64,000 bases of DNA from Desulfolithobacter dissulfuricans. Its GTDB lineage: Bacteria; Desulfobacterota; Desulfobulbia; Desulfobulbales; Desulfobulbaceae. The position numbers and the translations under genes were made by a program. Below are positions 3,319-59,000 of this stretch, piece by piece. The stretch spans positions 310,001 to 374,000 of the forward strand of contig NZ_AP024233.1 in assembly GCF_025998535.1 (NCBI RefSeq), written 5' to 3'. Position 1 is the first letter of the stretch. Each line of letters opens with the position of its first letter. A model generated the notes under the pieces. That model saw only the letters and a list, made by a program, of their open reading frames with translations. It searched no databases and was not told the DNA's origin.

Positions 3319-3333
3319 AGGAAAAATAAACAG

Positions 3334-3405
3334 GAGCCGTATACGAGGCCCGTACGTACGGTTCTGTGAGAGGGATGAGGCAAGCTTAATTACCTTGCCT
3401 CACCC
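3334..3405 (+). ncRNA. Group II intron domains V and VI, copy B
   Basis: Same architecture as copy A. Domain V is at 3334-3364 (GAGCCGTA/TACGGTTC). Domain VI has GAGGCAAG (3377-3384) paired with CTTGCCTC (3394-3401), with A3402 bulged before CCC. The domain V loop differs from copy A by one base. Confidence 0.8.
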
Positions 3406-3443
3406 TACTCGATATGGTGCAACTGTCAGATCAGGACATCTGT

Positions 3444-35480: not shown

Positions 35481-35534
35481 CTCTGTCTCCTGTTCGTAGG
35501 GTTGTGCATTCTTCAACCTGAGAAACAATAAACC

Positions 35535-39668: not shown

Positions 39669-41156
39669 TTATTTTTCTACCATCTCGTCCGCCAGGCCTA
39701 CCCATCCTCCACCCATGGCTTTGTAAAGCTTTATGAGAGCGGCGTAAATGTTGCTTGCTGTCTGTACATGTTTGATTTCGGCCGAGTAAAGGCGTCTCTG
39801 GGCATCCAGCACGGTAAGGTATCGCAGATATCCTGTCTCGTAGCGGATCCGTGAGAAGTTTTCATAGTCCTTCAGAACCGCTATGTATCGTTGCAGCTCG
39901 GTATACTGTTCCTTCTGTTTCTGAAGATAGATCAGTGAATCGTTGACTTCCCTGAAGGCCGTCTGCACGGTCCACATGTAGTCGTTGAGCACCTGACGGT
40001 AAACGGCGTGCGCCTGCTGAAGCTCGCCGCTGATTTTTCCTCCTGTAAAAAGAGAGCCGGCAATGTCCGAACCAATGCTCCATACGTTGGAAGAACCGGT
40101 AAGCAGTTCGGAAAGTTCCTTGCTCACATAGCCCAGTAAACCGGTCAGCGAGATCGAGGGAAAGTATTTTGTCCTGGCGATGCCGATGCGGGCGTTCGCC
40201 GCGACAAGATCCTGTTCTTTCTGCCGAATATCAGGGCGCCGCGAAAGAAGATCCGAGGGCAGGCCGGCCGGGACATCCGGCGTGCCGAGGGATTCCAGCG
40301 AGCGACCCCTTGGAATCCGGCCTGGATTGAATCCGCACAACAGGCTGAGGTAGTTTTCCTGAATAGAAATCTGGTATTCTATTTCAGGAATCAGCACTTT
40401 GATTTCTTCGTACGAGGAAAGAACCTGCGCCAGCTCAAGGTTGGATATCTGTCCTTTTTCCTTCTTGATCAGGTAAACATCAAGTAATTCTTTCCTGGAC
40501 TTGAGGGTATCGCGTGAAACCTCGAGTTTTTTAACCAGGGTCAACAGGTTAATATAGTTCAATGCTACATCGGTGGTCAGACTCATCACCACAGCCTTGC
40601 GGTTTTCTGCCGCCGAAAGTAGCTGCGCCCTTGCCTCCTCCGTGGACCGGGCGATACGGCCCCATAGATCGAGCTCCCAGCTGACCGGAAGTTGCAGGAG
40701 ATAGTTCGACGAAATCCTGTCCCCTCCTATAACTGTCAGGTCTCCATTCCCGCTTTTCTGCTGTCTTGAAGCCCGGGCATCGTATCCGAGCTGGGGATAC
40801 TTGAGCGCGGTTGTCGAACGCAGCCGTCCCTGCATCTCGTCGACCCGGGCAACAGCGATTTTCAGGTAGTGATTGTTCCTGAGCGCAGCGGTTATCAGAT
40901 CATTGAGCACAGGATCCTGGAACTGTTCCCACCATTTTTTTTCAGAAGCTTCGAGATTTGTAGGCAAAGTTGTCCGCCATCCGTCCGGTGAGGAAACGAC
41001 CGGCGGCTTGAAGTCTTCAGTTACGGCGCATCCCTGCAGACAACAGGTCACCAGAAAGATGATGACCGCCACCACGGTACCTTGCATGCCGATCGGCTGA
41101 TGGCAGGGGATGGTCGAGAGGCTGCCTGGCAGGGACAGTGGATACTTGCGTAACAT
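39669..41156 (-). CDS. OprM/NodT-type outer-membrane efflux lipoprotein
   Basis: An outer-membrane channel subunit of the TolC family, about 495 residues from ATG 41156. A lipobox (CLQGC) near residue 42 makes it a lipoprotein like OprM. Two OEP repeats follow, with the long coiled-coil alpha barrel and SWELDLWGRIARSTEEARAQ typical of NodT. In-frame ATGs at 41192 and 41087 are also possible. It is the last gene of the long operon and could partner the HlyD-domain protein four genes upstream or the MacB-type exporter. Confidence 0.9.
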   Translation of the reverse strand: MLRKYPLSLPGSLSTIPCHQPIGMQGTVVAVIIFLVTCCLQGCAVTEDFKPPVVSSPDGWRTTLPTNLEASEKKWWEQFQDPVLNDLITAALRNNHYLKIAVARVDEMQGRLRSTTALKYPQLGYDARASRQQKSGNGDLTVIGGDRISSNYLLQLPVSWELDLWGRIARSTEEARAQLLSAAENRKAVVMSLTTDVALNYINLLTLVKKLEVSRDTLKSRKELLDVYLIKKEKGQISNLELAQVLSSYEEIKVLIPEIEYQISIQENYLSLLCGFNPGRIPRGRSLESLGTPDVPAGLPSDLLSRRPDIRQKEQDLVAANARIGIARTKYFPSISLTGLLGYVSKELSELLTGSSNVWSIGSDIAGSLFTGGKISGELQQAHAVYRQVLNDYMWTVQTAFREVNDSLIYLQKQKEQYTELQRYIAVLKDYENFSRIRYETGYLRYLTVLDAQRRLYSAEIKHVQTASNIYAALIKLYKAMGGGWVGLADEMVEK

Positions 41157-41161
41157 ATTAA

Positions 41162-42109
41162 TTATTTGGTGAATTTTTTTGCAAAATTCCATGCAGCCTC
41201 GCTGGCGGAAATATAACGGCCGTCTTCCGGGGTATTGCGCCGCCCATGGCCGCCCGGCCAGACATGCTTGCCGTTCTTGATAGTGATAAGCTCAAAGGGG
41301 GCGCCACTGGTGCAGGTATAAGTAGTATGCTTGATCACACCGTGGAGGATTTCCACTTTGGGTGGGGCGCAGTCCCTGGTTGCCGTCATCATCCTGACGG
41401 TTTCCTCGACCGAACGATGACGCACTCCTGCCCTGCTGTTGTGACCCATACCCCCTTTATAGGGAACATTGTCATCCATTTCTCCGTGGATGTGGAGTAC
41501 AGCAACCTGGTTGGCCTTGTCACTGCAACTGTCAACTGCCAGCGTACCTGATACAGCGATAATGGCGGTAATTTTCTCCGGAATTTCGCAGGCCAGTCGG
41601 TATGCCAGCATGGCACCGTTGGAAAAGCCGGCCACATAGACCCGCCGGGGATCGATACCATACTCGCGCTGCATTTTGTCTATGAGATTGGAGATAAAGG
41701 CGACGTCATCCACATTGAAACGGACTGCGGGACCACAACACGACCCGGCATTCCAGGTTCTCCGGTTTTTAACCTGTCTCCGCATGGCATATCTGGGGCC
41801 GGTGCCATTTGGATAGACAACGATAAATCCCTCTTTGTCAGCCACGTTGTCCATACCGCTGGTCCGTTCCATGGCGGCGGCATTGCCAAGCCCTCCATGG
41901 AGAACGATCATGAGAGGCGGTGCCTGGGACGTTGTCGCAGATGAGGGTTTGTAGACGATGAAACTTCGGGTTTCACCGTCGACAAGCATTTGCAGGGATT
42001 TTTTTTCCGCCACACCGCCGTTCCCGGAGCTGACAGTGGCGGCACAACCGGTTGTACTCGTGATGAGAAGAGCCGAGATCAACATGACGGTCCTGAAAAA
42101 ATACGACAT
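41162..42109 (-). CDS. Lipoprotein esterase, PHB depolymerase/LpqC-like
   Basis: A 315-residue alpha/beta hydrolase. From ATG 42109 it has a signal peptide with a lipobox (TTGC), then VLHGGLGN (oxyanion region), nucleophile elbow GFSNGAM, Asp in HGEMDDNVP and His in GKHVWPGG. This is the PHB-depolymerase / feruloyl-esterase-like family LpqC. Anchored in the envelope, it could release or trim an ester-linked acyl product. Its stop is 5 bases from the next gene's start. In-frame codons upstream to 42163 are less likely. Confidence 0.87.
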   Translation of the reverse strand: MSYFFRTVMLISALLITSTTGCAATVSSGNGGVAEKKSLQMLVDGETRSFIVYKPSSATTSQAPPLMIVLHGGLGNAAAMERTSGMDNVADKEGFIVVYPNGTGPRYAMRRQVKNRRTWNAGSCCGPAVRFNVDDVAFISNLIDKMQREYGIDPRRVYVAGFSNGAMLAYRLACEIPEKITAIIAVSGTLAVDSCSDKANQVAVLHIHGEMDDNVPYKGGMGHNSRAGVRHRSVEETVRMMTATRDCAPPKVEILHGVIKHTTYTCTSGAPFELITIKNGKHVWPGGHGRRNTPEDGRYISASEAAWNFAKKFTK

Positions 42110-42169
42110 GGTACTGTTCTCCGAATTTTGATTATATTTTTCATCGCAAGGTGGTCTGCGCACGCCATT

Positions 42170-42592
42170 TTACTCTTCCTGCGAACTGAGATAATCGAGA
42201 AACGCATCCTCTATCTCCTTTATCTGGGCAAGTTCGTTGGTCAGTTCCTTGCAGATGGCTTCGAACCAGCGGATAGACGATTCAATTTTTTTTCGTTCAG
42301 CGATGATTTCGTGAATCGGCGCATTGGCCGGGAGTCGGCCTTTCTCGTCGAAGAAAAACTGGATCGCCTCCGCCACCTGGCGGTTGAGATTGACATATTC
42401 GATCTGCTCTTCGATAAAGCTTCTGACCTGGGCAGAACGAAAGCGGGTTATCGTTGCTTGCCTGAGGGCTTTGAGGGACTCGGGCAGATCGTCCGGTGTA
42501 CTGGTGGTGCTTTCCGGGTCGGTGTCGAGCAGACCGATGGGTTTTCTGGTGCCTGCTTTCAGCTGGTGCTCCGGTTGCTTGTCGTTGGTCAT
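42170..42592 (-). CDS. Hypothetical cytoplasmic protein of the lipid operon
   Basis: A 140-residue protein with no recognised domain. The first 45 residues are polar and disordered; the rest is predicted helical, with heptad-like repeats near the end (ERKKIESSIRWFEAICKELTNELAQIKEIEDAFLDYL as one long helix region, about 98-135). It is between the sulfotransferase and the esterase on the same strand, with short gaps, so it belongs to the operon. A scaffolding role is possible but unsupported. Confidence 0.7.
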   Translation of the reverse strand: MTNDKQPEHQLKAGTRKPIGLLDTDPESTTSTPDDLPESLKALRQATITRFRSAQVRSFIEEQIEYVNLNRQVAEAIQFFFDEKGRLPANAPIHEIIAERKKIESSIRWFEAICKELTNELAQIKEIEDAFLDYLSSQEE

Positions 42593-42670: not shown

Positions 42671-43579
42671 CTAGCAGTAGCCGAAGGAGCGGGCCAGTTC
42701 CGCGACTTCCGGGTAAAGTTGTCCGCCGTCGTCTCTCCAGGGAAGCGGACCTTCCAGGGGTGGCGGTTTCGGCTTGTGCTGGCGGAAGCTGGGGCCTCGG
42801 AGAAAGTTGGGATCATTTCCGTACAGGGCATTTATAGGCCCGAAACAGGCAAACGGCGATCGCTCCGGATGCATCATCTCGTCGATGGCCGCGTCGTCGT
42901 CACGAATTTCCAGCCATTGACAGATCTGGCGGAGATACCGGACCGGCTGTTCCATCAGTTTTTCTCCCTGCAGGCGCATCTTGTTCCTTTCAGGCACCAT
43001 GTCCAGAAAATTCATAATGGTGATGTTGATATTGTACCACGCGATCTGCGGTTCGATGATGGCCCTGTCTCCCCGGAATTCCAGCGCGTTGACCCAGAGG
43101 GCGAAGATGCCGTCGTTGAGTTTCATCACCGATTTGCACTGGGCGACGGGATGGCGGAGCAGATGGATGAAACGAGCATCGGGAAATGTTTCCAGTATCC
43201 TCTGCAGGTAGCGAAGCGAGAGGGAATACAGTGGACTTTTCTCGACAATGATGAGCGGATCGAGCTTATCGGCCAGTTCCCTGTAGACTTCTCCGGAGCT
43301 ACGTTCCTGGCGGGCGGCAGCCCAGTGATTCGCCATGTGTACTGTGGCGGCGGTCTGCTCGCCACCATATATTTCGGCCACGGCCCGCAGAAGGCCGTTT
43401 CTGCGCTTTGGTTGCGTTACATTGTCTGTGGGCTTGCGACGCCACAGATCCTTGAGGTGTTCAACATTGAAAAGGTTGAGTTCCGGCAGACCGAAAGTCT
43501 GCGGATGCTGACCTATCATGGCGTTGATAACCGAAGTGTAGGATCGTGGCGGGGCCAGCAGAAAAAGTGGAGGTGCCAT
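42671..43579 (-). CDS. Sulfotransferase family protein
   Basis: A 302-residue PAPS-dependent sulfotransferase. The 5'-phosphosulfate-binding loop is APPRSYTSVINAMIG (about 9-23), a variant of the usual PRSGTT, and the 3'-phosphate-binding strand is RFIHLLRHPVAQCKSVMK (about 136-153). The usual C-terminal region follows. It would transfer sulfate to a hydroxyl or amine, here plausibly on the lipid or polyketide made upstream. It is 10 bases from the phosphatase-like gene. Confidence 0.85.
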   Translation of the reverse strand: MAPPLFLLAPPRSYTSVINAMIGQHPQTFGLPELNLFNVEHLKDLWRRKPTDNVTQPKRRNGLLRAVAEIYGGEQTAATVHMANHWAAARQERSSGEVYRELADKLDPLIIVEKSPLYSLSLRYLQRILETFPDARFIHLLRHPVAQCKSVMKLNDGIFALWVNALEFRGDRAIIEPQIAWYNINITIMNFLDMVPERNKMRLQGEKLMEQPVRYLRQICQWLEIRDDDAAIDEMMHPERSPFACFGPINALYGNDPNFLRGPSFRQHKPKPPPLEGPLPWRDDGGQLYPEVAELARSFGYC

Positions 43580-43589
43580 ATGCTGCAGT

Positions 43590-44405
43590 TTATTTCAGAC
43601 CTTCCACAAACGGAACCTCGAAACACTTTTCGTGCATCACCGGACCGTGGCCGAAATAGCCGTCCTCGCCAAAGAGCTCACCATGGTCCGAGGTGACGAT
43701 AAACCAGGTATTCCCGGGTGCCTTATCCATGAGCCTCCCGATCTGCCCGTCCAGATACTCGACGCATTTGACCTGCTGCCTGTGCAGCATTTGCATCTGT
43801 TCCGGATCAAAGAATTTTTCACGGGAACCCTGTTGCCGGTCCCTGTTGTCCAGGGATTTGAAGACCCCGTGGACGCCGGAGATATGAGGCAGTTGGTCGT
43901 CATTGAGCATGTACGGATAATGCGTCTCCCCGAGATTGAGGAAATAGTAGTGCGGCTGGTCCGGGTTGAACTCCATTTCGTCGATCATGCCGGAGAAATC
44001 ATTGTGGTTCTCCATGAGCTTGTAATCGTCAAAGTCGCGGCTGATCAAGGTGAATTTATTCAACACGGGCAGTGAAACACGGGCAACGGTTCTGTAGCCC
44101 AGTTTCCTCAGGACCAGCGGCAGGGAAATTTCCGGTAGAAAGTCTTTAAAGGAAATATCGGGCAGCCCTGTTCTGTCTGTCCATAGAACGAATTCTTCCT
44201 TGTACACTGTGGAGGCGAAGACGCCAACCGGGCTGGTATGCGGCATCATCCCCATGGTAAAGGCGTAGTGGGATGGCGCTGTCCAGGAGGCATAGCTGTA
44301 CCGCTTTTCAACAGCTCCGAGGCGGTCGATATTGGGTGTGTCCGCCATCGTGAAAGTGTCGTAGCGACAACTGTCCATGATGATAAATACAATATTGTTT
44401 GCCAT
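43590..44405 (-). CDS. Sulfatase-like alkaline-phosphatase-superfamily protein
   Basis: A 271-residue protein from ATG 44405 (IVFIIMDSCRYDTF). Metal-binding features of the superfamily are present: the Asp in IIMDSCRYD, the TPNIDRLG segment and the C-terminal TSDHGELFGEDGYFGHG. The nucleophile position reads WTAPSH, with Thr where true sulfatases have the formylglycine Cys (CxPSR). It should therefore act more like a phosphatase or phosphoethanolamine-transferase-type enzyme than a sulfatase. No signal peptide is seen. It is shorter than most sulfatases (about 450), so it may be a trimmed form. Confidence 0.82.
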   Translation of the reverse strand: MANNIVFIIMDSCRYDTFTMADTPNIDRLGAVEKRYSYASWTAPSHYAFTMGMMPHTSPVGVFASTVYKEEFVLWTDRTGLPDISFKDFLPEISLPLVLRKLGYRTVARVSLPVLNKFTLISRDFDDYKLMENHNDFSGMIDEMEFNPDQPHYYFLNLGETHYPYMLNDDQLPHISGVHGVFKSLDNRDRQQGSREKFFDPEQMQMLHRQQVKCVEYLDGQIGRLMDKAPGNTWFIVTSDHGELFGEDGYFGHGPVMHEKCFEVPFVEGLK

Positions 44406-44476
44406 GATACTATCCAGGGAAAATGTAATGGTAACGCTCTCGGCCGTCTCCATGGCCGACCGGAACGGGTAATTGC

Positions 44477-46846
44477 CTATGGCAGCCAGGACCACACTTC
44501 TATTCTCGCAAATCTCCTCAGCCCCATGGACAGGATGTTCCACAGGGGAAGTTCAGAGCTCTGTATCTTGGCGTAGCCTGTCATGCCCGATTTTATGGCG
44601 CCGTCGTGATTTTCCAACCTAACCATAACGCTTATGAATTTTCCGAACTGCTCTTCTGTGACGTCGGGCCCAATGTTTGTAACTGTGCCATGAAATTCCA
44701 TATTTTCATAGGCCAAAGGACGGAGCTCGGCCTCTGCACCGGTTTGGACGAAATCTATGTCAACCTCGGGGATATTGATCTGGGCAGTCACGCTCTCGGT
44801 ATTTTCGGCCAGAGCAAAAGGCTCTCCTTTCTCAAGAAAACTGCCGATTTTCTGCTTCAGGTGCAGGGTGGTCAGTGTGCCGGTAAATGGCATGCGCAGG
44901 ACAGCCTGGTCGATCAATCTCTGGTAGTAGTCGCGCATTTCCTTGAACCGCTGCAGCTTGGCAGTGGCTGCCTCAAGTTCTTCGGGAGCAACACCGGCAT
45001 CGGTCAGGGCCAGATTGGCGGTGCGCTCTTCTTCCTGCATCTTGTCAACATTATACTGTTTTTCTATATCGGCAAGCTCTTCCAGGGAAATAGCCTCTTT
45101 CTGGAACAGTTCTCTTGCCCGCTGTAATTTTGCCTCGCTGAATCTGACCTTGGTCTTTTCGACCTCAAGACTTCTCAGAGCCAGGAGGTGTTCTTCCGGA
45201 CGGGGCTTGGCTTTCATGTTCTCGATGATTGCCGCCTGTTCCTTCACCTTGTAGGCATACAGGTTTCGCTGGTACTCGAATTCAGAGGAGTCAAGAACCG
45301 CGATGGGCGTGTCGGCGGTAACCGTCTCTCCGCCGTTGAAATACACTTCCTTGATGATGCCGGGATAGTTCGAGGTGATCTCCTGCTGTTTGCCGGGGAT
45401 GATGACGAAGTTTCCGCCCGGATTGTACCTGCAGGGCACCATCAGCAGTAGAGCGGTTATGAAGACGATTGAAGTCCAGACCACCGACCTGGTGATATTT
45501 CTCTGGCGACCGGGGACGATACTGTCACTGTTGTCAGGAGCAAGGCGCTTTCGCCATCGTTCAAATTGAACGGTGCGTTCGTACTGTTCGGTTATTTTCT
45601 TGAGCTGTCGCCATATTCTGTAACAGACAAACAAAAAGAGAACGGCTGTTACGATTATTCCGGCTGGTCCTATCTGTATCTTGAGGATGTGACCGACAAA
45701 GTACACGCCGACGGTAATCACCGTCAGCAGGCAGAGTATGGACAGCAGGGCATAGGCGCTGAGAATGGTGTTGTCCGCCGAGGTGTAAACCCGTCCATGC
45801 AGTTTGTTCAGCAGGGTTTTGTACGCCTTTTCCTTGAGATACGGTTCGTTGGCAAAGGCCGATAACAGATAGTAGCCGCTGCTCTTTATAAGAGGGTTGG
45901 CGGTAATGAGGAAAGATACACCACTGATCGTGGCCAGGGAAAGCCCGAACAATGATTGCCCGGTCCCCTGTCCCCTGGTGATGTACCACAGCAGGATGCC
46001 GAGGCTGAAGAGGGCGATCCGGACCACGAGGGGAGTGGCATGCAGCCATATCCGTTCACGCCTGCTGAGCTGCTGAACATGGCCGATCCGGAGCATGAAC
46101 CGGGGCAGGAAGAAGAAATAAAAAACAAGGCAGACGGCATGTACAGTGGCGCGAAAGGAATGGGCCACGAATGCGGTTGTAACCGTCACAGCGAGGTTCA
46201 CTGTGATCATGCCCAGGAGGATGTGCTCCAGAAAGGTGATATTATCGAGTACAAAGCCGATATCGTGTTCGATCAGGACAAAGTATTTCGTCGCGATATA
46301 GAGCGACACAAGAAAAAGGGTCGGCAGCAGATAGATAGAGTACCGTAGAGGTGCGACAATCGGTGCCAGTATCTTGAGCAACGGACCGGGATCGAAAATC
46401 TTGAATCCCCGGAAGGCGACAGTATCGTCCATGCCGGCGACATCCTTGATTCCGGCCGGCAATTCCTCGTCGGAAACCGTTTTTCCGGTACTCGCGGCGG
46501 AAGCCTGGCTCCCCTTTCTCGTCTTTAACTCCTCAAGGATAGGATGAGAAAAGGCCTGTATCCTGAAAAGCTTTTTTTCTTCGATTTCATCGAAGAGTTT
46601 TTCGGCCTCGTCGATGGTGAGTGGTCGGCCGAATCGGTCTTCGAATACAGAGGAAAGTTTTTTGAAGTCCTCGCAGCCGACCAGCACCTCGAGGACGAAA
46701 AACTGCCAGGGTTCAAAATAGTGAGACTGCCGTGTGTTCTTGTCCCGTATGATATAGGTCTGTTGCTGCCCGTCATCGACCCGGAAGGCCTGCAGGTGCT
46801 TTTTCAGCAGTGCGGGAACAGCAACTTTTTTCGCTTCTTCACCCAC
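44477..46846 (-). CDS. PqqD-like / M50-like membrane core / HlyD adaptor fusion
   Basis: A 789-residue membrane protein. Residues about 20-95 look like a PqqD-type winged helix (PWQFFVLEVLVGCEDFKKL). About 160-410 hold several helices resembling M50 membrane metalloproteases, with NPLIKSSGYYLLS as the counterpart of the usual NPLLRxDGYY. The HExxH motif is missing: AHSFRATVHAV is in its place, and the Asp of the second motif is replaced. After a further helix (about 453-470) comes a HlyD barrel-hairpin-barrel adaptor with a coiled coil (about 520-640). It probably spans the inner membrane and contacts the OprM-type channel. GTG start after AAGGA; overlaps the propeller gene by eight bases. 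Confidence 0.82.
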   Translation of the reverse strand: MGEEAKKVAVPALLKKHLQAFRVDDGQQQTYIIRDKNTRQSHYFEPWQFFVLEVLVGCEDFKKLSSVFEDRFGRPLTIDEAEKLFDEIEEKKLFRIQAFSHPILEELKTRKGSQASAASTGKTVSDEELPAGIKDVAGMDDTVAFRGFKIFDPGPLLKILAPIVAPLRYSIYLLPTLFLVSLYIATKYFVLIEHDIGFVLDNITFLEHILLGMITVNLAVTVTTAFVAHSFRATVHAVCLVFYFFFLPRFMLRIGHVQQLSRRERIWLHATPLVVRIALFSLGILLWYITRGQGTGQSLFGLSLATISGVSFLITANPLIKSSGYYLLSAFANEPYLKEKAYKTLLNKLHGRVYTSADNTILSAYALLSILCLLTVITVGVYFVGHILKIQIGPAGIIVTAVLFLFVCYRIWRQLKKITEQYERTVQFERWRKRLAPDNSDSIVPGRQRNITRSVVWTSIVFITALLLMVPCRYNPGGNFVIIPGKQQEITSNYPGIIKEVYFNGGETVTADTPIAVLDSSEFEYQRNLYAYKVKEQAAIIENMKAKPRPEEHLLALRSLEVEKTKVRFSEAKLQRARELFQKEAISLEELADIEKQYNVDKMQEEERTANLALTDAGVAPEELEAATAKLQRFKEMRDYYQRLIDQAVLRMPFTGTLTTLHLKQKIGSFLEKGEPFALAENTESVTAQINIPEVDIDFVQTGAEAELRPLAYENMEFHGTVTNIGPDVTEEQFGKFISVMVRLENHDGAIKSGMTGYAKIQSSELPLWNILSMGLRRFARIEVWSWLP

Positions 46847-48374: not shown

Positions 48375-49286
48375 TCAATATACGAGGTGCTGGCGCAGGG
48401 GCGCAAGGGGAGGGGACTGCGATTTGCTCCAGAAAAGATGACAGGTTTCAACCACTTCATCCTGGCGGGACAGGGGAAAGAAGTGGCCTGCGTTGCGGAA
48501 AATATGGAAATCCGCCTGCGGCCAGACATCCTTGAGAAAATGCATCGTGGGCAACGCCTGGGAATGTTCTCCGTACATGGCCATTAGGGGAAGTTCCAGC
48601 CGGGACAATCTGTCTGCGCAAAGCCCGTCGGGCGCCATTATTTCTTTTTCCGCCGCTTCTGTTGCAACAAGCTGGAGCCATTTCAAAGCGGTTCGTCTGT
48701 CGAAGCGGCAGATAAGAGGCCCAAGGGCCTGCTTGATTTCAGGAGCAAAACTGGCCTGGCCGGCTTTCATCCTGGCGATCACCGTCAGTAGATGATAGCC
48801 GAAAAAAGGATCCTCGCTGTCAATGGGGATGTTGAATCTGTTCAGCAAGGTCGCGATATCACGGCCCTGTTTCCAGGGGAACCGATTCGCATTCTTTCTG
48901 CCTTCCCAGAGATGGGTGTCGGCAAGGACCAGGCTGGCAACAGAGTCGGGCCGGCGGCAGGCGTGGCACAAGGCAACAGCCCCGCCGTAGCTGTGGGCGA
49001 GAAAATGCGCTTTCTCGATACCGAGAAATTCCAGTAGCCCTGCCAGGTCCCTGGCCATACTGTCGGGTGTGTAGCCCCCTTGTGGTACAGAGGACCTTCC
49101 ATGTCCCCTCAGATCGTACAGGGTGACATGGAAGCTGGCCCTGAATTCCTCCACGTAGTGAGGGCACCAGAAAGCCAGGCTGGTGGCCAGTCCATGTATC
49201 AGAACCAGTTCCTCGGCCGCCTCGTTGGCTGTGCACTCAATTCGCATGTAATTGAGCTTTATTCCATTTATTTCCGCTGAGGGCAT
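48375..49286 (-). CDS. Alpha/beta hydrolase
   Basis: A 303-residue alpha/beta-hydrolase-fold protein. LVLIHGLATS gives the oxyanion region, LYDLRGHGRSS follows, the nucleophile elbow is AHSYGGAVA (Ser about 98), and the His is in NAGHFFPLS near the end. It has no signal peptide and would act in the cytoplasm, possibly as a thioesterase releasing the product from the synthase. The proximity to the KS-AT genes supports that role, but many hydrolases share this fold. Stop of the previous gene is 6 bases upstream. Confidence 0.88.
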   Translation of the reverse strand: MPSAEINGIKLNYMRIECTANEAAEELVLIHGLATSLAFWCPHYVEEFRASFHVTLYDLRGHGRSSVPQGGYTPDSMARDLAGLLEFLGIEKAHFLAHSYGGAVALCHACRRPDSVASLVLADTHLWEGRKNANRFPWKQGRDIATLLNRFNIPIDSEDPFFGYHLLTVIARMKAGQASFAPEIKQALGPLICRFDRRTALKWLQLVATEAAEKEIMAPDGLCADRLSRLELPLMAMYGEHSQALPTMHFLKDVWPQADFHIFRNAGHFFPLSRQDEVVETCHLFWSKSQSPPLAPLRQHLVY

Positions 49287-49292
49287 CTGTTC

Positions 49293-50897
49293 TCACTCCA
49301 TGTAGCCCAGCATTTTGAGCTGTTCCAAAAGCCGTTCTTTCTCGTCTTCGGACATCTTGTCCGCTCCTGTTTCCTTTTTCTCCAGCACGGTCGGATCCCC
49401 GAGGCATACGGGATGGTCCTGCAGTTGGGAGTCGGTGAACAAATTTTCAGGCACCCGCCCTTCCATGTTCCGCGGTACCTTCAGGCCGAGGCTGTACAAC
49501 AGTAACGCGCCGGCATCGACAATATCGCATGGAGCTACAGTTTCATTTTCCCTGATTCCTCTGCCGCAGGCAATGAGGATCCCTTCTGGATGATGGGTGC
49601 CGGCAACTTCTTCCCGCGGCTGCACCACCGGTTTTTTATTTTTTATGGATACAAAACCGAAATCCCTCAGGACCAGCAGGAGGTCCGGGGCGTCGGCCAT
49701 GGCCGGGCCGGAAAATACCTCCTCGCGTTTATGGATCCCGGTGATGATCCGTTCGCCGGTGGCCGGATCGCGCAATTCCCGGAGATCCTCGATGAGTTGT
49801 TCCCTGAAGCGTTCATATTCCTGTTCCGGCACTCCCGGATCTCCGGGGTTCCGGGCGACCCGGATCGTAATGCCGTTGCTGGAGGGTGTGCTGCAGTAGG
49901 CGGTGGTTCCTGACCAGTCCAGGTTGGCGAACATGCTCTCCTCGCGCCTTTTCGCAGCTTCGGTGTCGGGCATTTCTTTCCACTTAAGGTATCCCTTCTC
50001 ATGCAGATAGGTGTTGATGCGCACGACCTCGTAGGTTGTCGTGAAACCGTGATCCGAGACCAGAAATACCTGCGCATCCGGGCCGGCCGCGGTCACGAGC
50101 TCCTGGATGTATCCGTCGAGGTTCCGGAAGTATTCCAGGCAGAGGGATCGCATGCGGTGATAATATTCATCCCTGTCTGTCTCCTGCACTGTTGGATCGA
50201 GAAAATGCCAGGCCTGGTGCTGTATCTTGTCAACACCATCGAACATTACTGCCATGAGATCTGGTTGCTCTGTTTCCATCAGATATTTCGCAATGGAGAA
50301 CCAGAGGCGTTCCCGGGGAAGATGGTAGCGTATCCAGTCTTCTCTCTCTGTGGCGGAAAGTTCGGTGACCGCCTTTTTTTCAAGTTCGAAATCCCATGCC
50401 AGTTCCCGGGGATTGAAATCAGGCAGGTCCTGGCGCAGCCGGTCGTAAAGATCTTTGGGGGTTGTGTTGTTTCTGAGGTGGCGCCACGGAATAAATCCGG
50501 GAATCATTACCCCGTTGATGTCGTCGGGAGGCGGGGCCGTAAAGGGAAAATTCAGGGCCACAATACGTTGGCCGGCCCTGCTGGCCAGGGACCAGATGGT
50601 TTCGACCCTGCAGTCTCTCGCATCGTAGAGCGTGAAAAAAATATCGTTGTCAGCTTCTTCGGAGCGGATGAAATCGTAGATGCCATGATGTCCCGGAGAG
50701 TACCCTGTCATCAGGGATACCCAGGCAGGCGGGGTGAGGGGATTGGGCGTGGACCGGAGGATACCTCGGGATCCTTTTCTGTACAGGGATGCCAGAAAAG
50801 GCATGGTTACTTCCTCTTCTCCATGCTGGGCGGTCAGAGAGTCCAGAATGGTGAAAGTGGCGCCGTCAAGACCGATCAGCAGTGTTTTTGTTCCCAT
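49293..50897 (-). CDS. Type I phosphodiesterase/nucleotide pyrophosphatase family protein
   Basis: A 534-residue alkaline-phosphatase-superfamily protein. Metal ligands and the nucleophile can be seen: LIGLDGATF near the start, TPPAWVSLMTGYSPGHHGIYDF with the Thr nucleophile, FDGVDKIQHQAWHFLD, VSDHGFTT and THHPEGILI near the C-terminus. No signal peptide is present. It ends with a helical tail of charged residues. It may remove or transfer a phosphate-containing group during product maturation. The ATG at 50897 follows AAGGAGC; ACP and this gene are 10 bases apart. Confidence 0.85.
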   Translation of the reverse strand: MGTKTLLIGLDGATFTILDSLTAQHGEEEVTMPFLASLYRKGSRGILRSTPNPLTPPAWVSLMTGYSPGHHGIYDFIRSEEADNDIFFTLYDARDCRVETIWSLASRAGQRIVALNFPFTAPPPDDINGVMIPGFIPWRHLRNNTTPKDLYDRLRQDLPDFNPRELAWDFELEKKAVTELSATEREDWIRYHLPRERLWFSIAKYLMETEQPDLMAVMFDGVDKIQHQAWHFLDPTVQETDRDEYYHRMRSLCLEYFRNLDGYIQELVTAAGPDAQVFLVSDHGFTTTYEVVRINTYLHEKGYLKWKEMPDTEAAKRREESMFANLDWSGTTAYCSTPSSNGITIRVARNPGDPGVPEQEYERFREQLIEDLRELRDPATGERIITGIHKREEVFSGPAMADAPDLLLVLRDFGFVSIKNKKPVVQPREEVAGTHHPEGILIACGRGIRENETVAPCDIVDAGALLLYSLGLKVPRNMEGRVPENLFTDSQLQDHPVCLGDPTVLEKKETGADKMSEDEKERLLEQLKMLGYME

Positions 50898-50907
50898 GGT
50901 AGCTCCT

Positions 50908-51189
50908 TTATACCCTCTGTGCCACATAATCGGCGATCTGGCTGACCGTCAGGTCAGATACATAACTTCCGTCTTCCATCAGCAGGGACTGAAAGCCTAT
51001 TTTTTTGCCGTAGAACTGTTCAATAGCGACACACAGCTGGATAATATCGACCGATGCGAAATCAAGGTCTTCGACCAGGGACGTCCGGCCCGATATTCCA
51101 TCGGCCAGGTCAAGTCCCCAGTCCTGAACAAGATCCTCGATTATTTCAATCAGTGATTTTTCGACGTTTTCTCTGTTGGTAGATGACAT
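50908..51189 (-). CDS. Stand-alone acyl carrier protein
   Basis: A 93-residue acyl carrier protein. The phosphopantetheine site lies in VEDLDFASVDIIQL (Ser about 46), and helices before and after fit the four-helix fold. It should carry acyl groups as a thioester for the synthase next to it, and would be activated by the phosphopantetheinyl transferase encoded 107 bases upstream. The DFASVD motif is a variant of the common DSLD. The ATG follows AGGAAGGAA. The 51190-51296 gap has no gene; it contains a weak TACAAT -10-like box. Confidence 0.9.
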   Translation of the reverse strand: MSSTNRENVEKSLIEIIEDLVQDWGLDLADGISGRTSLVEDLDFASVDIIQLCVAIEQFYGKKIGFQSLLMEDGSYVSDLTVSQIADYVAQRV

Positions 51190-51296: not shown

Positions 51297-52988
51297 TCAG
51301 GGAGAGGGAGGGGCAATGGCATACGCTGCGATGCAGGATCCTTTTTTCAGTATGTTCACGGGCACCTGTCGGTCGCCGAGGTGGACCACCGCCTGCCGCC
51401 ACTGGTTGTCGAAGACAACCCGGTACTGTCTGGGGTTACCTTGCAGGCCGCACTTGAAATATTTCGAAGCAGCCTCTCTGGCACACCAGATAAAAAACAT
51501 CTTTTCGCGCAGAGGCTCTCCTTCAAGCCCTTCCAGCATCAGCTGCTCCGACTCTCTCAGGGTTGCCGATACCAGTTCCAGATCAAAAGGCCTGTCGAGA
51601 TGTTCAAAGTCTACCCCTATGGTCCGGCCGGGAGGAACGATGGCGGCCAGGGCCATCTTCCGGTCATGGGAAAGAGATATTTCGGGCAGGGCAATACCCT
51701 GATCCACGACCGTTTCCACGTAGGGAGCCCCATGTTCGTCATGCAGCACAACGAGGTCTGCCGGAAAGATCGTCAGGTCCATGTGAGTCCGAAGCCAGTG
51801 AATGATCCCTTCCTTGATACAGATGCGCCCAAAGAGCCATTCCATCTGTCTGCGTAAAGGTTTTGACGTCATTTCGAGCCAGCTGTCGTACTCTTCCCAA
51901 CTCAACAGGGCTCTGGCGAGAACGCGAAGAAAAATCCGCCCGGACTGGGCGCAGAATTTTTCCGGTAAATAATCCAGTCGCCACAGGACAATATCATCCT
52001 GTTGGTCGGTAAAGAGGCGGCCCAGTCTACCCTGTAACGGATCCTTGCGCACTTCATAAAATCTCTGCGGAACAGGGAAGAAAATGTTGGACAGGCCCGA
52101 CATCCGGAAGAGGGCGTTTCCGTTGTTATCAAGACATTCGAAGTTCCAGAGATGATCACCGTCCCGGGAACCTGGCGATCTCCTGCCGGTAAGGGTGAGA
52201 TTGTCCAGGGTGGTGGGTTGTTTTCCGTAGAGCTCAATCCGGTCTATGGTCGAGGGGAAAGAGTTGAATGCCGGGCCCTCGCGGTGAGCTGTCCAGTAGG
52301 CGGCAAGTTGCCCGGTGGCGTCCAGCAGCACAGGGTTGAGGATCAGCTCGGGTATTTTTTCAGGTTCAAAAAAGCCGGTCAGGGACAGTTCTCCCAGTTT
52401 GGCCTCGATTCCGGTCTCGGCCCAGCCGGTAATCCTGCGTATACTTTGAAAGGTTGGCCCGTGAAACATGCCGGTGGTGTACAGTTCGTCCGGTTGCCAT
52501 CGGTATTCCCGGGTTCCGGTGAGAATCGGTAATGGTTTCAGCAGTCTGTCGACCTGAAACGAGTAAAGAGCTGAAACCGCCGGTTTGCCGTTGTGCAGAA
52601 TAACCGCACTGAATTTTTCCGGCATGTCCTTGAGCCGTTCCGCTCGGACCTCGAGGGTAATTTCATCGGAATCAAGGGCAATCCAGTCAAAAGATTTGAT
52701 GTTTTCTATCGTCTGGACATTGACGTCTCCGGCGGCAAGTGCGCAGGCCTCGGCCATGATTTCAAGGCTGACCATCAGGGGGACGCACGAGAGGCCAACC
52801 ATGTTTTCCTGGAGAGAGCTTTTGCCGGACAGGATATGATCCTGCAGAAAATGGTCTGCAAAAACATCGAGTACTGTCCGCGCAACGCAGAGGTTGCTGT
52901 CAAGTTCTTCTATGAAGTCAAGAAAGGGAGCGGATACCTCGTCGTCAATGGATTGTCCTTCATGGAATTCGACATACCCCTCGTCCAT
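51297..52988 (-). CDS. Polyketide-type dehydratase fused to phosphopantetheinyl transferase
   Basis: A roughly 563-residue protein from ATG 52988. The N-terminal double-hotdog dehydratase has an active-site DHILSG (His about 51) and, in the second half, FHGPTFQSIRRI and the Asp of LLDATGQLAAYW (about 223). The C-terminal part is a 4'-phosphopantetheinyl transferase with GVDFE (about 458-462) and WCAREAASK (about 501). It would dehydrate the 3-hydroxyacyl intermediate and load the cofactor on the ACPs. Its start overlaps the upstream gene by about 80 bases. One extra base in the five-G run at 52990-52994 would join the two frames into one KS-AT-DH-PPTase protein. Confidence 0.85.
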   Translation of the reverse strand: MDEGYVEFHEGQSIDDEVSAPFLDFIEELDSNLCVARTVLDVFADHFLQDHILSGKSSLQENMVGLSCVPLMVSLEIMAEACALAAGDVNVQTIENIKSFDWIALDSDEITLEVRAERLKDMPEKFSAVILHNGKPAVSALYSFQVDRLLKPLPILTGTREYRWQPDELYTTGMFHGPTFQSIRRITGWAETGIEAKLGELSLTGFFEPEKIPELILNPVLLDATGQLAAYWTAHREGPAFNSFPSTIDRIELYGKQPTTLDNLTLTGRRSPGSRDGDHLWNFECLDNNGNALFRMSGLSNIFFPVPQRFYEVRKDPLQGRLGRLFTDQQDDIVLWRLDYLPEKFCAQSGRIFLRVLARALLSWEEYDSWLEMTSKPLRRQMEWLFGRICIKEGIIHWLRTHMDLTIFPADLVVLHDEHGAPYVETVVDQGIALPEISLSHDRKMALAAIVPPGRTIGVDFEHLDRPFDLELVSATLRESEQLMLEGLEGEPLREKMFFIWCAREAASKYFKCGLQGNPRQYRVVFDNQWRQAVVHLGDRQVPVNILKKGSCIAAYAIAPPSP

Positions 52989-55900
52989 TGGGGGCGTGCT
53001 CCCCAATCTCCGGCAGAACCCGGAAGGGAAGGTGTGCCGGCCGCAGTCGCGGCAGGTCCGGCGCAGAACGCTGTACCTGGGACCGGTATCCCGTTGTCGC
53101 CTGAATCTCCGCGAGGTTGCGCAGCGAAAACAGTACTGCGCAGGATCGAAACATCATGTTGATCCAGGTGGATCACCGGCATGGTGTTGTCCAGCACCAT
53201 GCCCCTGGCAGAGTCCTGTTCCTTGTCAGGATTCCGGGCCGTTGACCGGGACCGGAACAGGTTCCCGAGGTCCATGTCCACCCTGTTGGCAAAGAGGAAA
53301 GCCAGGACGGTGAGAAACTGCTGGAGGCTGTTTTTCTTTCTGATGTTGAGGGGCAGGGCAACCGCGTCTTTCCCTTTCAGGATATCGTTGACAAAGGCGC
53401 TGAGGTTCGCGGAGGGTCCCACCTCGATGAAGCATCTGGCACCGGCATCATACATTCTACGGACAGTTTCCGTGAAGCGCACCGTCGTGGACCACTGGCT
53501 TGCGGCCAGTTCCCTTGCCGCCGCAGGGTCGTCGGGAAACAGGTCCGCGGTGGCACAGGAGTAAAGGGGAATTTTCGGAGCGCCAAGTTGCACCTGGTCG
53601 TAATATTTCCTGAACGCCTTGGAAACAGCCGCAAAACGGGGAGTGTGATACCCCCTGTCAAAGGGCAGCAGGATGCATATTCCTCCTTGCCGGACAAGAT
53701 CCTCCTGGACAGCGGCAATGGTGTCCCGGTCTCCGAAGAGTATCACTTGGCTGGCGCAGTTATCCATCGCGATAACCGGGTCCCCTGGCGCTTTTTCAAG
53801 ACACTGGAGGACGGTTTCCCTGGACAGGGCGCCAACTGCAAGCAGGGCCCCGGTGGGAACATCGCCGGCCGCCTGAACTTCCTGGTATACAAGGTTGAGT
53901 TCCTTTATGAGGTTGGCGAGCGTGGATTTACTGCTGGCCTTGATCGCACCCGAGGCCACAAGCGCCGAGGATTCCCCGGTACTGTGGCCAACCATCATGT
54001 CGGCCTTGACGCCCAGGTGTTCAAGGAGGGTGAAGAGTGCCTGGCTGCCGATGAACACTGCTTCGGAACCAGTGTCCATGGAATGAAGCCGCTCTTCGAG
54101 TTCGGCGCGCATTTTTTCGCCCGATTCACCTGGCGGTGGAAACAGAATGTCGGTACGCGACATGTCACCATCGTCGTAAATCCCGCTCCAGCAGTCAAAC
54201 CATTCCCGCACCTCATCAAAGTGAATGGCAAGATCAGCAAGCATTTCGAGGTACTGGGAACCTTCTCCGGGAAACATGAAAGCCAGTTTGCCGTTCAGAG
54301 GTCTGGAGCCAAACGATATGGAGTTGCGCAGGGTCCAGCTTTCCTCTGTTCTTCTGTCGGCAAGGTTTTTCAGCGCACTTTGGATTTTCCGACTGAGGTC
54401 CTGCCTGTCGGAAGCCACAAGTCCAAGGCGGTATGATTGTGCTTCATCCTCGAGAGCCAGGGTTGCGGCGATGGAATCGATCTCTTGCCCCGTGTCTGTG
54501 TCGAGCTGTTCCAGAAGGTCTTGCAGTTTGCCGGAGAGCGTATCCCTGTCCGGGGCTGAAAATACAAAAAGCTCCCAGGGCCACCGGGAAAGCGTGTCCG
54601 GTCTCCGGGCGACGGCAGGGGCTTCTTCCATGACGGCATGGGTGTTTATGCCGCCAAAGCCAAACGCGTTGACAGCGGCCCGGCGGACGAGTTCCGGTTT
54701 GGATATCCAGGGGCGGACCGAGGTATTGATGTAAAAGGGAGTGGTCTCGATGTTGAGTTCAGGGTTGACCCTGTCGCATATCGTCGGCGGCAGAATACGG
54801 TGGTGCAGGGCCAGGGCCGTCTTGATGACTCCGGCTATGCCTGCTGCCGGTATGCAGTGACTGATCATCGACTTGACAGAGCCAAGGGCGATGTGCGCCA
54901 GTTGCCCGCGACGTTGTCCGAACACGTTGCCCAGTGCTTTGATTTCTGTCCTGTCCCCCAGGGGAATGCCTGTGCCATGGGCCTCGATGAGACGCACGGT
55001 CTCTGGATCGACCCGGCACGAACTGTAGGCTCTCTCGATGGCCAGGGTTTCGCCCTCGACACTCGGAGCCAGCAGTCCCTGTCCCCGGCCGTCACTGGAT
55101 TGCCCGATATCCCGGATGAGGGCATAGATTCTGTCTCCGTCCTCCAGGGCGTCTTCGAGCTTTTTCAGCGCGACAATGCCCAGACCCTCTCCCAGCAGGG
55201 TGCCATCGGCATCGGCCGCAAAGGGGCATACCCTTCCTTTTCGGCTCAGGGCGCCAAGCTCTGTGAAGATAATCGCCACTTCGGCCGGCAGGGAGGCATT
55301 TACTCCGCCGGCAAGCATCAGTCGGCTCCGGTTGCTCCGAAGCTCTTCGATGGCGGCATTGAGCGCCAGCAGAGAAGAGGAACAGGCGGCGTCAATCAGG
55401 TAATTGGGTCCCTTGAGGTTGAGCCTGTTGGCTATCCTGCCGGTCATCACATTGGGGACCAGTCCGGGATAGATATCCGTGTTGGACTGTGGCAGCCTGG
55501 CCTCCAGGGTTTTCCGTATCTTCTCCTTCTGAGCCGGGGTGAGATCGGGATAGAATGCTTCAAGCAGTTCCAGGGTCTGGTCCAGGACGATATGGTGCTG
55601 GACCATGTTGACCTGGCCCCGGTGCAGATAGGTGCTGTGACCAAGAATAATGCCTGTCTGGGAATGATCGTGCTCGTCCCCGAGGTATCCGGCATCGGCC
55701 AGGGCTTCCCAGGCAACCCGCAGGGCGAGAAACTGGTCCGGCTCCCCGCCATCCAGGGATCTGGGCATGATTCCGGATGGCCGTGGGTCAAAACGGTACA
55801 GATCCTTGAGATATCCGCCCCTGGCTGTGTGTATCCGGCCGCTTTCAATATAACGCTGTGCTTCCCATCCCGGGACCGGATCATCCACTGCATTGACAGC

Positions 55901-56008
55901 CCTGAGGATATTGTTCCAGAAGGACTTGAGGTCCGGAGCCTGGGGAAAGATACAGGCCATGCCGATGATGGCCACCGCCCCGTTTGTTCTGTTACTGTCT
56001 CGTGACAC
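52910..56008 (-). CDS. Ketosynthase-acyltransferase megasynthase subunit
   Basis: A 1032-residue KS-AT protein. The ketosynthase (about 10-455) has Cys in DAACSSS (about 209), His in EAHGTG (about 344) and His in ISHCIPAAGIAG (about 384), so it is catalytically complete rather than a chain-length factor. The acyltransferase (about 570-890) has GHSTGES (Ser about 676). The last 100 residues are Ala/Pro/Gly-rich and lose all similarity, which suits either a linker or a wrong frame after a missing base (52990-52994). The GTG start overlaps the stop of the large synthase by 17 bases. Confidence 0.9.
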   Translation of the reverse strand: MSRDSNRTNGAVAIIGMACIFPQAPDLKSFWNNILRAVNAVDDPVPGWEAQRYIESGRIHTARGGYLKDLYRFDPRPSGIMPRSLDGGEPDQFLALRVAWEALADAGYLGDEHDHSQTGIILGHSTYLHRGQVNMVQHHIVLDQTLELLEAFYPDLTPAQKEKIRKTLEARLPQSNTDIYPGLVPNVMTGRIANRLNLKGPNYLIDAACSSSLLALNAAIEELRSNRSRLMLAGGVNASLPAEVAIIFTELGALSRKGRVCPFAADADGTLLGEGLGIVALKKLEDALEDGDRIYALIRDIGQSSDGRGQGLLAPSVEGETLAIERAYSSCRVDPETVRLIEAHGTGIPLGDRTEIKALGNVFGQRRGQLAHIALGSVKSMISHCIPAAGIAGVIKTALALHHRILPPTICDRVNPELNIETTPFYINTSVRPWISKPELVRRAAVNAFGFGGINTHAVMEEAPAVARRPDTLSRWPWELFVFSAPDRDTLSGKLQDLLEQLDTDTGQEIDSIAATLALEDEAQSYRLGLVASDRQDLSRKIQSALKNLADRRTEESWTLRNSISFGSRPLNGKLAFMFPGEGSQYLEMLADLAIHFDEVREWFDCWSGIYDDGDMSRTDILFPPPGESGEKMRAELEERLHSMDTGSEAVFIGSQALFTLLEHLGVKADMMVGHSTGESSALVASGAIKASSKSTLANLIKELNLVYQEVQAAGDVPTGALLAVGALSRETVLQCLEKAPGDPVIAMDNCASQVILFGDRDTIAAVQEDLVRQGGICILLPFDRGYHTPRFAAVSKAFRKYYDQVQLGAPKIPLYSCATADLFPDDPAAARELAASQWSTTVRFTETVRRMYDAGARCFIEVGPSANLSAFVNDILKGKDAVALPLNIRKKNSLQQFLTVLAFLFANRVDMDLGNLFRSRSTARNPDKEQDSARGMVLDNTMPVIHLDQHDVSILRSTVFAAQPRGDSGDNGIPVPGTAFCAGPAATAAGTPSLPGSAGDWGARPQWTRGMSNSMKDNPLTTRYPLPFLTS

Positions 56009-59000
56009 GGGCAGTGCCTCCCAGACGGTTTAACTCTTTGCTTGATACGCAGTTGAGATCCTCTATCTTCAGGACCACCCTTCCTTCGCTGTCGGTGAAA
56101 AGCACATCGGCCGATATCATGCTGGGCTCCGGAGTCTCTCTCCGGCGAAACTCCATGGACAGTTTTGGCGGCAGCCTGTCAACATACCTTGTGATGCGGC
56201 CAAACCGCACCGGCAGGGCTGATTCGCCCCGGAACATTCTCGCCCACAGCAGGCCCATCTGCGGTGCGGCGTCGAGCACTGCAGGATCAAGGATCCACCG
56301 GTTGTCCCGCTCCGGGATGCCTGAGAGCCATTCTCCGGGCTCGCTGGGGCGCAGTTCGGCCAGCGCACCTTCAGACGACATTCCATGGATGGTCTCGATG
56401 ACCTGGAACACGGGTCCATGAAAGAGCCATTCGTCGTATGCCTTTGCAACCGACAGGCTTTTTTCCCGGTAGTCGTCTGTCGTGTGGGTGGTGTCCGGCA
56501 TTGCAGGCAGTTCCCGGGCGAACCGTACCGTACATCGGTAGTGGATGACCTGCCTGCCATTGTCCCCCTGCGAGGTGAGAGCGGCCGTTACGGTAACGTT
56601 ATCCCCGTCTCTTTCGCCAGGGTCGAGTTCAAGCACTATCTCCTGGTCCTGAGCGGTGATTTTGATTCCATTCAGAACCCGGAGGTCATGCAATGCAACA
56701 ACCTTTTGTTCAGGGTAAAGCAAAGAGGTCCCTTCGGCGATTATTTCGGCCGCAGCGGCAGCCGGCAGGACTGGAATATTGTCTATCCTGTGTTCGTCAA
56801 GATATCGGTGCCTTCGTCCAAGCAGGATATGAGTCTTTATCTTTCGCTGGTCTGAAGGCGGAAAAGTTTCTGTTGGACTGAAAAAGGGTGTGGGATGATT
56901 TTTCGGAAAAATTTTTCCTTTTTCAGCTTCATGTTCTTCCCATTTCCCCTGCCCGCAGATGATTTCCACCGCAGGGTCATAGGATACCAGAACCTCGTCC
57001 GCGAAAAGTTTTCGTCCCTGGTCACTCTGGACCAGTACCACTCCCTTTTCCAGGAATTTTTTTTCAGTCTCAGGGGTTACCATCCCGGAGCCGTACCTGG
57101 TCGGTCCCCAGGGGCCCCAACAGAGAGCTTTGATGGTGACCTGCTGCGGCCATATCCTCCGCAGCTGGCAACATATCCTGTTCATCAGTTCGTTGGCCGT
57201 GGCATAGTCTGTCTGGCCGGAGTTTCCGTATCTGCCGGCCACTGAACTGAAAACGGTAAAAAATTTCAATGACTCCGGGCGGATATATTTCTGCAGCAGC
57301 ATCAGTCCGATTACTTTTGTCTCAACCACCCGGGACCAGCTCTCCGCAGTTTTATCTTCCAGCAATTTGTCTTCTATTACACCGGCACCGTGGACGATGC
57401 CGTGGATGGCGCCGTATTTTTCGTACAGGTTTTCAAAAAGTGTTTTGACACCATTTTCGTCGGTGATATCCAGCTGGCAGTAGATTACTTCCGCTCCCTT
57501 TGAGCGGAAATCCTCCATGTTGGCGAGCAGTTCTCTGTCCGATAAAATTTTCATGGCCCGGCGCCTGATTTCGGCTGGTTTGAGATCAAGCCTGCCTGTC
57601 CGGACCTGTTCTATGAAATAGCGTTGGATGTCGGCCAGGGATACAAGTTTTTTCAGTTCTGCCGGTTCCTCCTCCGGCAACCCGGAGCGTCCGGCTAACA
57701 CCAGTGTGTTGCCCGGCTGCGCCAGGACTCTCAAAGTTTCCGCGGTGATACCTTTTGCCCCGCCTGTGGCGAACACCACCATGTTTGCCGGCATGCCACC
57801 CTCATGTTCCGGGATGGCGGCCGGGACTGTTTTGAAAATTGTCCGTTCGCCCCGGGGATAGCCGACCTCCTGCCGTCCTCCTACGAGTTCGGTCTCTGCC
57901 AGTACCAGTTCCGCCATTCGGGAAGGTTCCAGGTCAGGATCCAGATCAATCGCCTTGAGTCGGAAATTCGGCTTCTCCTCCAGAAGGGACTTGATAAGGC
58001 CGACAGCGCCCCCCTGCAGGGAAAGTCCCTCGTGCGGCACCGCGAGGCGGCAGAAGGAACCGCCAAGACCGCTGACTGCGACGATATGGGCATTGTCGTG
58101 CAGGAGTGACAAAGTCCGATGCACCAGCAGGAAAAATGATTTTTCGCTGGTGAAAAGTTCTGCCCGCCACTGGTCGGATTTCGCCTCCGTGGGTAGCCAC
58201 GGCGCCGAAACCGGCACCGCATGGATTATACCGGCAAGCTCTCCGGCGGGTACTGTCAGGGCGGCACACCACTGTTCAAGGCTCTGTTCGTCCTCCAGGA
58301 CCTGGCGCGGGAGCAGGATCGGCTTGCAGCCCTTAGCGGACAGCAAGCCCTCCAACTCGCCGGCGAGCCCCATGTCATCCTCGGTGATTATAAAAAAACC
58401 GGTCGTCAGATGGGTTGCCGCTTTCCCATCCAGGGGCTCGGCCACAGGTTCGATGATATACCGGGACGGAAGGTCTGCGGCCAGGACCTCCTGCTCCGCC
58501 CCGGTCTGATCAAAAGGGCGCGAATCCTCCCCCTCTGTCAGCAGGATATCAACCATACCCTTCAGGGTCGACTGGGTGTTCAGTTGTGAGCGTTCTTCCT
58601 CGCCCATTGACCGGACCCGATCCTCGGGCAGAACCTTGAGCAGTTCTCCCACAATTTCAACCCGCTTGATGGAATCAATTCCCAGATCCGCTTCCAGGTT
58701 CTGTTCCAGTCCTATCATATCTTGCGGGTATCCGGTTTTCTCTTCGACGATTTTCAGCAGGGTGGCCGTGAGCTTGTCCCGGTCCATCATTCCGGTCTGG
58801 GCAGGGGTGGGCTGCCTGTCATCACCGCTTTCCCGGCTGCTTCCGGGCTGGAGGTTATCATCGGTGGACGCCGGGGCCGGTTTGCCAGCCATGTCCTCCC
58901 TGGGGGGCTGGCTTTGGGCAGCGGGTTCCGGGCCGGTCCGGGCCTGCGGAGACCCGGCAGCCGAGGCGGCTGAAGGGGGGGATGGACGCCGGGGCACGCG

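Follow-up and report, generated by a model that had tools for sequence, protein, structure and literature searches.

A family of PqqD-M50-HlyD fusions without the M50 zinc site, encoded beside Pfa-like synthase and TolC-type genes

Introduction

The acyl part of heterocyst glycolipids is made by a Pfa-like synthase. Export of these glycolipids by DevBCA-HgdD relies on an adaptor and a TolC homologue (PMC8277102); the system that we propose here from gene content resembles it in combining an adaptor and a TolC homologue with a lipid cargo, but in DevBCA-HgdD an ABC transporter (DevCA) occupies the inner-membrane place that an adaptor-fused pseudoprotease would take here. MacA and EmrA, the adaptors of MacAB-TolC and EmrAB-TolC, share their fold with residues about 471-750 of the fusion protein described below, but have neither an RRE nor a polytopic core in the same chain. 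Pfa/secondary-lipid synthase clusters comprise PfaA-like KS-AT-ACP-KR-DH, ER and PPTase pieces, which likewise lie beside the fusion, and the main text of a survey of such synthases mentions none of HlyD, M50, peptidase or sulfotransferase (Shulse and Allen 2011, PMC3098273).

The polytopic core of the fusion has its own relatives. HExxH is general in M50, and in site-2 proteases the groove is open to the bilayer. SpoIVFB and M. jannaschii S2P share the fold of fusion residues about 146-388; unlike them, the fusion has lost every zinc ligand. The iRhom rhomboid pseudoproteases likewise keep an intramembrane protease fold without catalysis and in another role, but they belong to a serine-type family, act in eukaryotic trafficking and lack a fused adaptor (PMC3149277). 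Closest of all are intact PqqD-M50-HlyD fusions, which have the same three-part architecture and carry database names such as 'PqqD family peptide modification chaperone' or 'HlyD family efflux transporter periplasmic adaptor subunit'; in contrast to the fusion studied here, HExxH and NPLxxxDG are present in them, their C-termini and neighbourhoods are different, and they form a separate clade. Our literature search, a weak negative because it covered open-licence papers only, returned none on PqqD-M50-HlyD fusions or on the clade without HExxH. The architecture as such is thus already in databases, and the family with a dead core is apparently undescribed.

Results

Domain composition of the fusion protein

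The window analysed is a 64,000-nucleotide stretch of Desulfolithobacter dissulfuricans DNA, in which the fusion gene and the propeller-like gene upstream of it share 8 bp, the start of the former running over the stop of the latter (Table 1). A frameshift or assembly artefact was ruled out; the frame is open for 797 codons, and relatives are colinear. Profile-profile comparison, AlphaFold2 modelling and structural alignment concur in dividing the protein into a PqqD/RRE-like domain, an M50 (site-2 protease) core and a HlyD/MacA-type adaptor. The model has a pLDDT of 87 over the entire protein (86.6 for the N-terminal 474 residues), and its full-length pTM of 0.55 means that the positions of the domains relative to each other are not reliable.

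Table 1. Features of the fusion gene and of the surrounding gene cluster, in window coordinates.
Feature	Position	Strand	Basis or remark
PKS, NMO(ER)-KS-AT-ACP-KR-DH, PfaA-like	55992..63998	-	Domain scans; continues past the window end (2708 aa in the wider contig)
KS-AT protein, PfaA-like	52910..56008	-	Domain scans; conserved neighbour
DH + phosphopantetheinyl transferase protein	51297..53006	-	Domain scans; neighbour survey
Type I phosphodiesterase/AP-superfamily enzyme	49293..50927	-	Domain scans; neighbour survey
Alpha/beta hydrolase	48375..49286	-	Domain scans; neighbour survey
Propeller-like protein (by eye), 495 aa	46839..48326	-	No Pfam/NCBIfam match; most constant neighbour (58/80 loci)
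PqqD/RRE - dead M50 - HlyD fusion protein, 789 aa	44477..46846	-	GTG start
PqqD/RRE-like domain, residues 12-105 (bbb-aaa)	46532..46813	-	AF2; TbiB1 Z 7.9; PqqD matches in 12/69 relatives
M50/site-2-protease-like core without zinc ligands, residues 146-336	45839..46411	-	hhalign; VIA Z 9.8/8.8 to SpoIVFB/mjS2P
HExxH slot, reads VTVTT (V220-T221-V222-T223-T224)	46175..46189	-	Alignment
AHSFRATVH, residues 228-236, outside the HExxH slot	46139..46165	-	Within the A[HY]S[FY]RA[ST]V-like motif of the window subclade; alignment
NPLIKSSGYY, residues 317-326; S323 in place of the catalytic Asp	45869..45898	-	Alignment
Post-core helices, mostly transmembrane, residues 337-470	45437..45838	-	AF2
HlyD/MacA/EmrA-type adaptor, residues 471-750 (lipoyl, helical hairpin, beta-barrel)	44597..45436	-	Pfam; Foldseek
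C-terminal helix + EVWSWLP tail	44480..44545	-	W785, W787, P789 invariant in 69 sequences
Sulfatase/STM4013-like hydrolase	43590..44543	-	Likely real start about 44402
Sulfotransferase (PF13469)	42671..43579	-	40/80 loci
140-aa conserved protein	42170..42592	-	No family match; 8/80 loci
Esterase-like alpha/beta hydrolase	41162..42163	-	Domain scans; neighbour survey
TolC/NodT-type outer-membrane channel, likely partner	39669..41192	-	Domain scans

When the window protein was searched alone against Pfam and NCBIfam, Pfam recognised only the HlyD half (PF16576, E 1.1e-14; PF13437, E 2.4e-9), for which Foldseek of the C-terminal half also returned MacA and EmrA (E about 1e-15); the fused HlyD adaptor that a preliminary description had read from the sequence is thereby borne out. 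Since the PqqD and M50 parts are invisible to single-sequence searches, we assembled a family of homologues and assessed these two parts at family level, by hhalign and by profile matches of relatives. The claim of PqqD and M50 parts fared unevenly in profile searches: the window protein itself matches neither Pfam PqqD (PF05402) nor Pfam Peptidase_M50, and at family level both assignments are clear.

For the N-terminal region, PF05402 matched 12 of 69 dead-core members (best 3.2e-9), and the AlphaFold2 secondary structure of residues 18-90 is that of a bbb-aaa winged-helix fold, which aligned with the RRE of TbiB1 over residues 12-105 (VIA-align Z 7.9, rmsd 2.6, 83 residues). Structure prediction thus places this region in the PqqD/RRE fold and not outside it.

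For the core, we compared the N-termini of 69 dead-core members by hhalign with 18 intact members of the PqqD-M50-HlyD family, every one of which matches Peptidase_M50; the result was a probability of 100 and an E of 1.7e-51, with the match starting at residue 12. The model aligned with SpoIVFB (VIA-align Z 9.8, rmsd 4.9, 161 residues) and M. jannaschii S2P (mjS2P, 3B4R; Z 8.8, rmsd 3.6, 137 residues); because Z values below about 13 can arise by chance in helical bundles, the M50 assignment rests on hhalign, the NPLxxxxGY landmark and the structural match together. The NPLxxxxGYY landmark named in the preliminary description is indeed kept, and an M50 core is what these comparisons indicate. 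NCBIfam NF041824 (daptide HExxH M50) also matches residues 224-420 of the window protein, far under its cut-off (2.8e-6). TRPV channels and other helical proteins appeared with low scores in a Foldseek search of the N-terminal model, and we took them as chance. Within its own subclade, the window protein has a mean identity of 44% in the core, 41% in the RRE and 40% in the HlyD part, and the core has 20 near-invariant residues (RRE, 0); a core conserved as well as the adaptor, and with so many near-invariant positions, is under selection.

Loss of the zinc ligands

We located the zinc-ligand slots by aligning 79 dead-core sequences with 29 intact ones. HExxH is absent from the window ORF and from every dead-core member of the alignment; the first His slot is S, G, V or A in most of them and the second mostly R, Q or K. 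The loss of HExxH from the core was therefore called correctly in the preliminary description, which had, however, let AHSFRATVH stand in its place: the real slot is V220-T224, and AHSFRATVH begins 8 residues past it (slot start to motif start), aligns with CRRFGGEVH of intact proteins and varies, so that we rejected it as a shifted HExxH. The catalytic Asp, the third zinc ligand, is part of the NPLxxxDG landmark itself and, as had been claimed, is lost in the window protein; this slot is D in 44 of the 79 dead-core sequences. No column of these 79 sequences has His or Cys above 23%, which makes a replacement zinc site very unlikely, and the predicted structure, considered for ligands from elsewhere, holds no complete zinc site and leaves the reading of a dead core standing. 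The core is thus an M50 fold without zinc ligands and, judged from those lost ligands, a presumably inactive pseudoprotease.

A clade without HExxH in several phyla

Roughly two dozen homologues came from searches of related genomes; HE[LF]xH and NPLxxxDGY are intact in most of them, and HExxH is missing from a few. The window sequence by itself retrieved no relatives in a contig scan; a profile scan with an alignment (A3) of homologues without HExxH succeeded, recovering 80 loci from contigs of 84,980 species; class genomes were scanned too. Because the scan patterns, [VI]E[VI]WSW[IL]P and [KR]xxMTGxAK, come from the C-terminal part, loci were not selected by HExxH status. Among all readable sequences with a WSW-type tail, HExxH occurs only in locus L052 (a Verrucomicrobiota bin, 1611-4232), where the two motifs are HEFAH and NPLIKLDGY and the C-terminus is WSWW; this protein is likely an intermediate between intact and dead-core fusions.

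In a tree of 100 rows rooted on the intact group, a branch (SH-aLRT 96) sets off 74 dead-core sequences, with L052 adjoining them and 25 intact sequences separate (100). The dead-core clade (about 75 homologues) lacks HExxH and ends in [VI]E[VI]WSW[IL]P, and by record names its rows come from some eight phyla (Thermodesulfobacteriota, Myxococcota, Pseudomonadota, Planctomycetota, Cyanobacteriota, Acidobacteriota, Verrucomicrobiota and Rokuibacteriota). The dead core is therefore not an isolated decay and marks a widespread clade. As M50 proteins in general have HExxH, this tree is most naturally read in the direction of loss, and because the sister L052 keeps HEFAH, the alignment and tree point to a zinc site that was probably lost once.

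The gene neighbourhood

From the PKS to the TolC gene, the window cluster lies on a single strand with many overlaps and short gaps (largest about 370 bp), and domain scans found in it the Pfa/secondary-lipid synthase pieces PfaA-like KS-AT-ACP-KR, DH, ER and PPTase. Across 80 loci (L052 included), homologues of the window neighbours recur: propeller at 58, sulfotransferase at 40, KS-AT at 30, hydrolase at 29, esterase at 27 and AP at 25, with some PKS piece at 32. A propeller-like, Pfa-type PKS and/or sulfotransferase gene is present at 67 loci, and marker neighbours are absent at 12. The same queries found no PKS, propeller or sulfotransferase gene near intact-family fusions (0/16 loci), a contrast that is strong but not exhaustive, since the controls with an intact core belong to the same phylum as the window and the sequence flanking each locus is limited. 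The fusion and its neighbours have correlated protein distances (Mantel rho 0.50, 0.46 and 0.39; 0/999 permutations each), as shared species history can likewise produce, and the gene linkage itself can stem from shared regulation or co-transfer and not from direct function.

A TolC-family gene occurs at 38 loci, the window's own counted, and at 27 it is the immediate same-strand neighbour of the fusion gene (gap -97 to +107 bp). TolC homologues also lie near 5 of 16 intact relatives, so having TolC nearby does not set the dead core apart.

Several smaller features accompany these genes. For the propeller-like protein, we found no family or solved relative; its homologue in locus L031 (3566-5821) bears a C-terminal SAM methyltransferase domain. 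The 140-aa protein is kept near the sulfotransferase and TolC genes in the window subclade (8 loci). On the strand of the TolC gene and 2.2 kb past it, a LolA-like protein, a MacB-like permease and an ABC ATPase (34740-37476) form a possible lipid/lipoprotein transport set, and an ORF between this set and the TolC gene (38216-39418, + strand) is by eye of the secreted endonuclease/exonuclease/phosphatase type. At the Solimonas-type loci (L053, L055, L079, L080, L092, L096 and L099), an MMPL-family transporter gene stands just ahead of the TolC-fusion pair, in most cases with a DUF1329/LolA-like gene.

Discussion

We consider it fairly probable that the fusion serves, in a single chain, as inner-membrane base and periplasmic adaptor of an exporter of the TolC type, and that this exporter is dedicated to what the adjoining Pfa-like PKS/secondary-lipid cluster makes, a lipid that is possibly sulfated. 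The ancestors would have been PqqD-M50-HlyD fusions acting as zinc intramembrane proteases, of which the dead-core clade would have lost the zinc site and retained the fold; the adaptor part would assemble as a ring (hexamer), like MacA/EmrA, and dock TolC. With less certainty than these last two steps, the ex-protease groove may be where an acyl chain, or whatever carries it, enters, and a biosynthetic partner or carrier protein may dock on the RRE-like domain at the cytoplasmic face. The turn from protease to transport module that the preliminary description had suggested fits a single loss of HExxH with an HExxH-bearing sister, the constant HlyD fusion and the TolC linkage. That description also had the PqqD-like domain recognise cargo in the cytoplasm and hand it over to the adaptor; because the neighbouring genes point to a polyketide-type lipid as cargo and not to a peptide, this is a step that we can only infer.

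How such an exporter would be energised divides the possible readings. A survey of 41 loci with 7.5 kb on each side, by hydropathy and motif scan only, found a further membrane-transporter candidate (MMPL, AcrB-type or ABC) at 19 and no other polytopic or ABC gene at 22, 14 of which have TolC; no dedicated pump is conserved across loci. The fusion could be an accessory adaptor to an ordinary ABC, RND/MMPL or MFS pump whose gene lies either close to the fusion or in another part of the genome, with the dead M50 part anchoring the adaptor and docking cargo or pump. Such a role, which we hold to be possible but rather doubtful, agrees with the published description of tripartite systems, which includes an energised ABC, RND or MFS pump (PMC8277102), with the candidates at those 19 loci and with the MMPL genes of the Solimonas loci and the MacB/ABC/LolA-like genes near the window TolC gene; it sits less well with the lack of any one conserved pump type, with the 22 loci without a nearby pump, which include the compact Neptuniibacter operons closest to the window, and with a core conserved as well as the adaptor, which a mere anchor would not need. 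At the other extreme would be a two-gene exporter of fusion and TolC without any ABC, RND or MFS pump, in which a ring of dead proteases gates the PKS lipid sideways from the bilayer into the adaptor tube while the RREs dock synthase or carrier; we regard this version as speculative and unlikely. A pump encoded elsewhere could supply the energy, or perhaps one encoded nearby, in view of the transporter candidates and of the window's MacB/ABC/LolA-like set beyond TolC.

Two further readings depart from the exporter of a polyketide-type lipid. Leader peptides are the usual ligands of RRE-like folds (PMC7470986, PMC12710340), and the structural match is to leader-bound TbiB1, so the fusion might export a RiPP-like peptide recognised by its RRE-like domain, with the PKS cluster a separate neighbour; we judge this improbable, given that PKS, propeller and sulfotransferase neighbours recur across phyla, that the RRE has no near-invariant residue in the window subclade and that no precursor peptide gene was noticed in passing (without a systematic small-ORF search). 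Continued metalloprotease activity of the core with a different set of ligands is scarcely credible: the Asp slot is D in many dead-core sequences and H229 and H236 lie close by in the window protein, but these two His vary even in close relatives, His and Cys stay at or below 23% in every column of the family, the Asp too is gone in the window, and the near-invariant core residues of the window subclade include no His, Cys or Asp.

If the favoured reading, a TolC-type exporter of the Pfa-like product, is true, an intramembrane protease fold would have been reused within an export machine, and TolC systems would gain an extra class of inner-membrane partner. Many uncharacterised Pfa-like lipid clusters would then have a recognisable exporter, with [VI]E[VI]WSW[IL]P plus a dead M50 as the search signature, and an RRE-like domain in a seemingly non-peptide pathway would imply a broader role for this docking fold.

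Variant gene arrangements

In some bins the fusion gene appears as two ORFs (L030, 10950-13352; L040; L048; L126/L141), through a stop codon, a frameshift or a natural split. On plasmid pA of Sinorhizobium chiapasense (L142, 20001-21465), in a part of the record that is unannotated, a HlyD-like stretch is followed by PqqD-M50-like stretches, the reverse of the order in the fusion.
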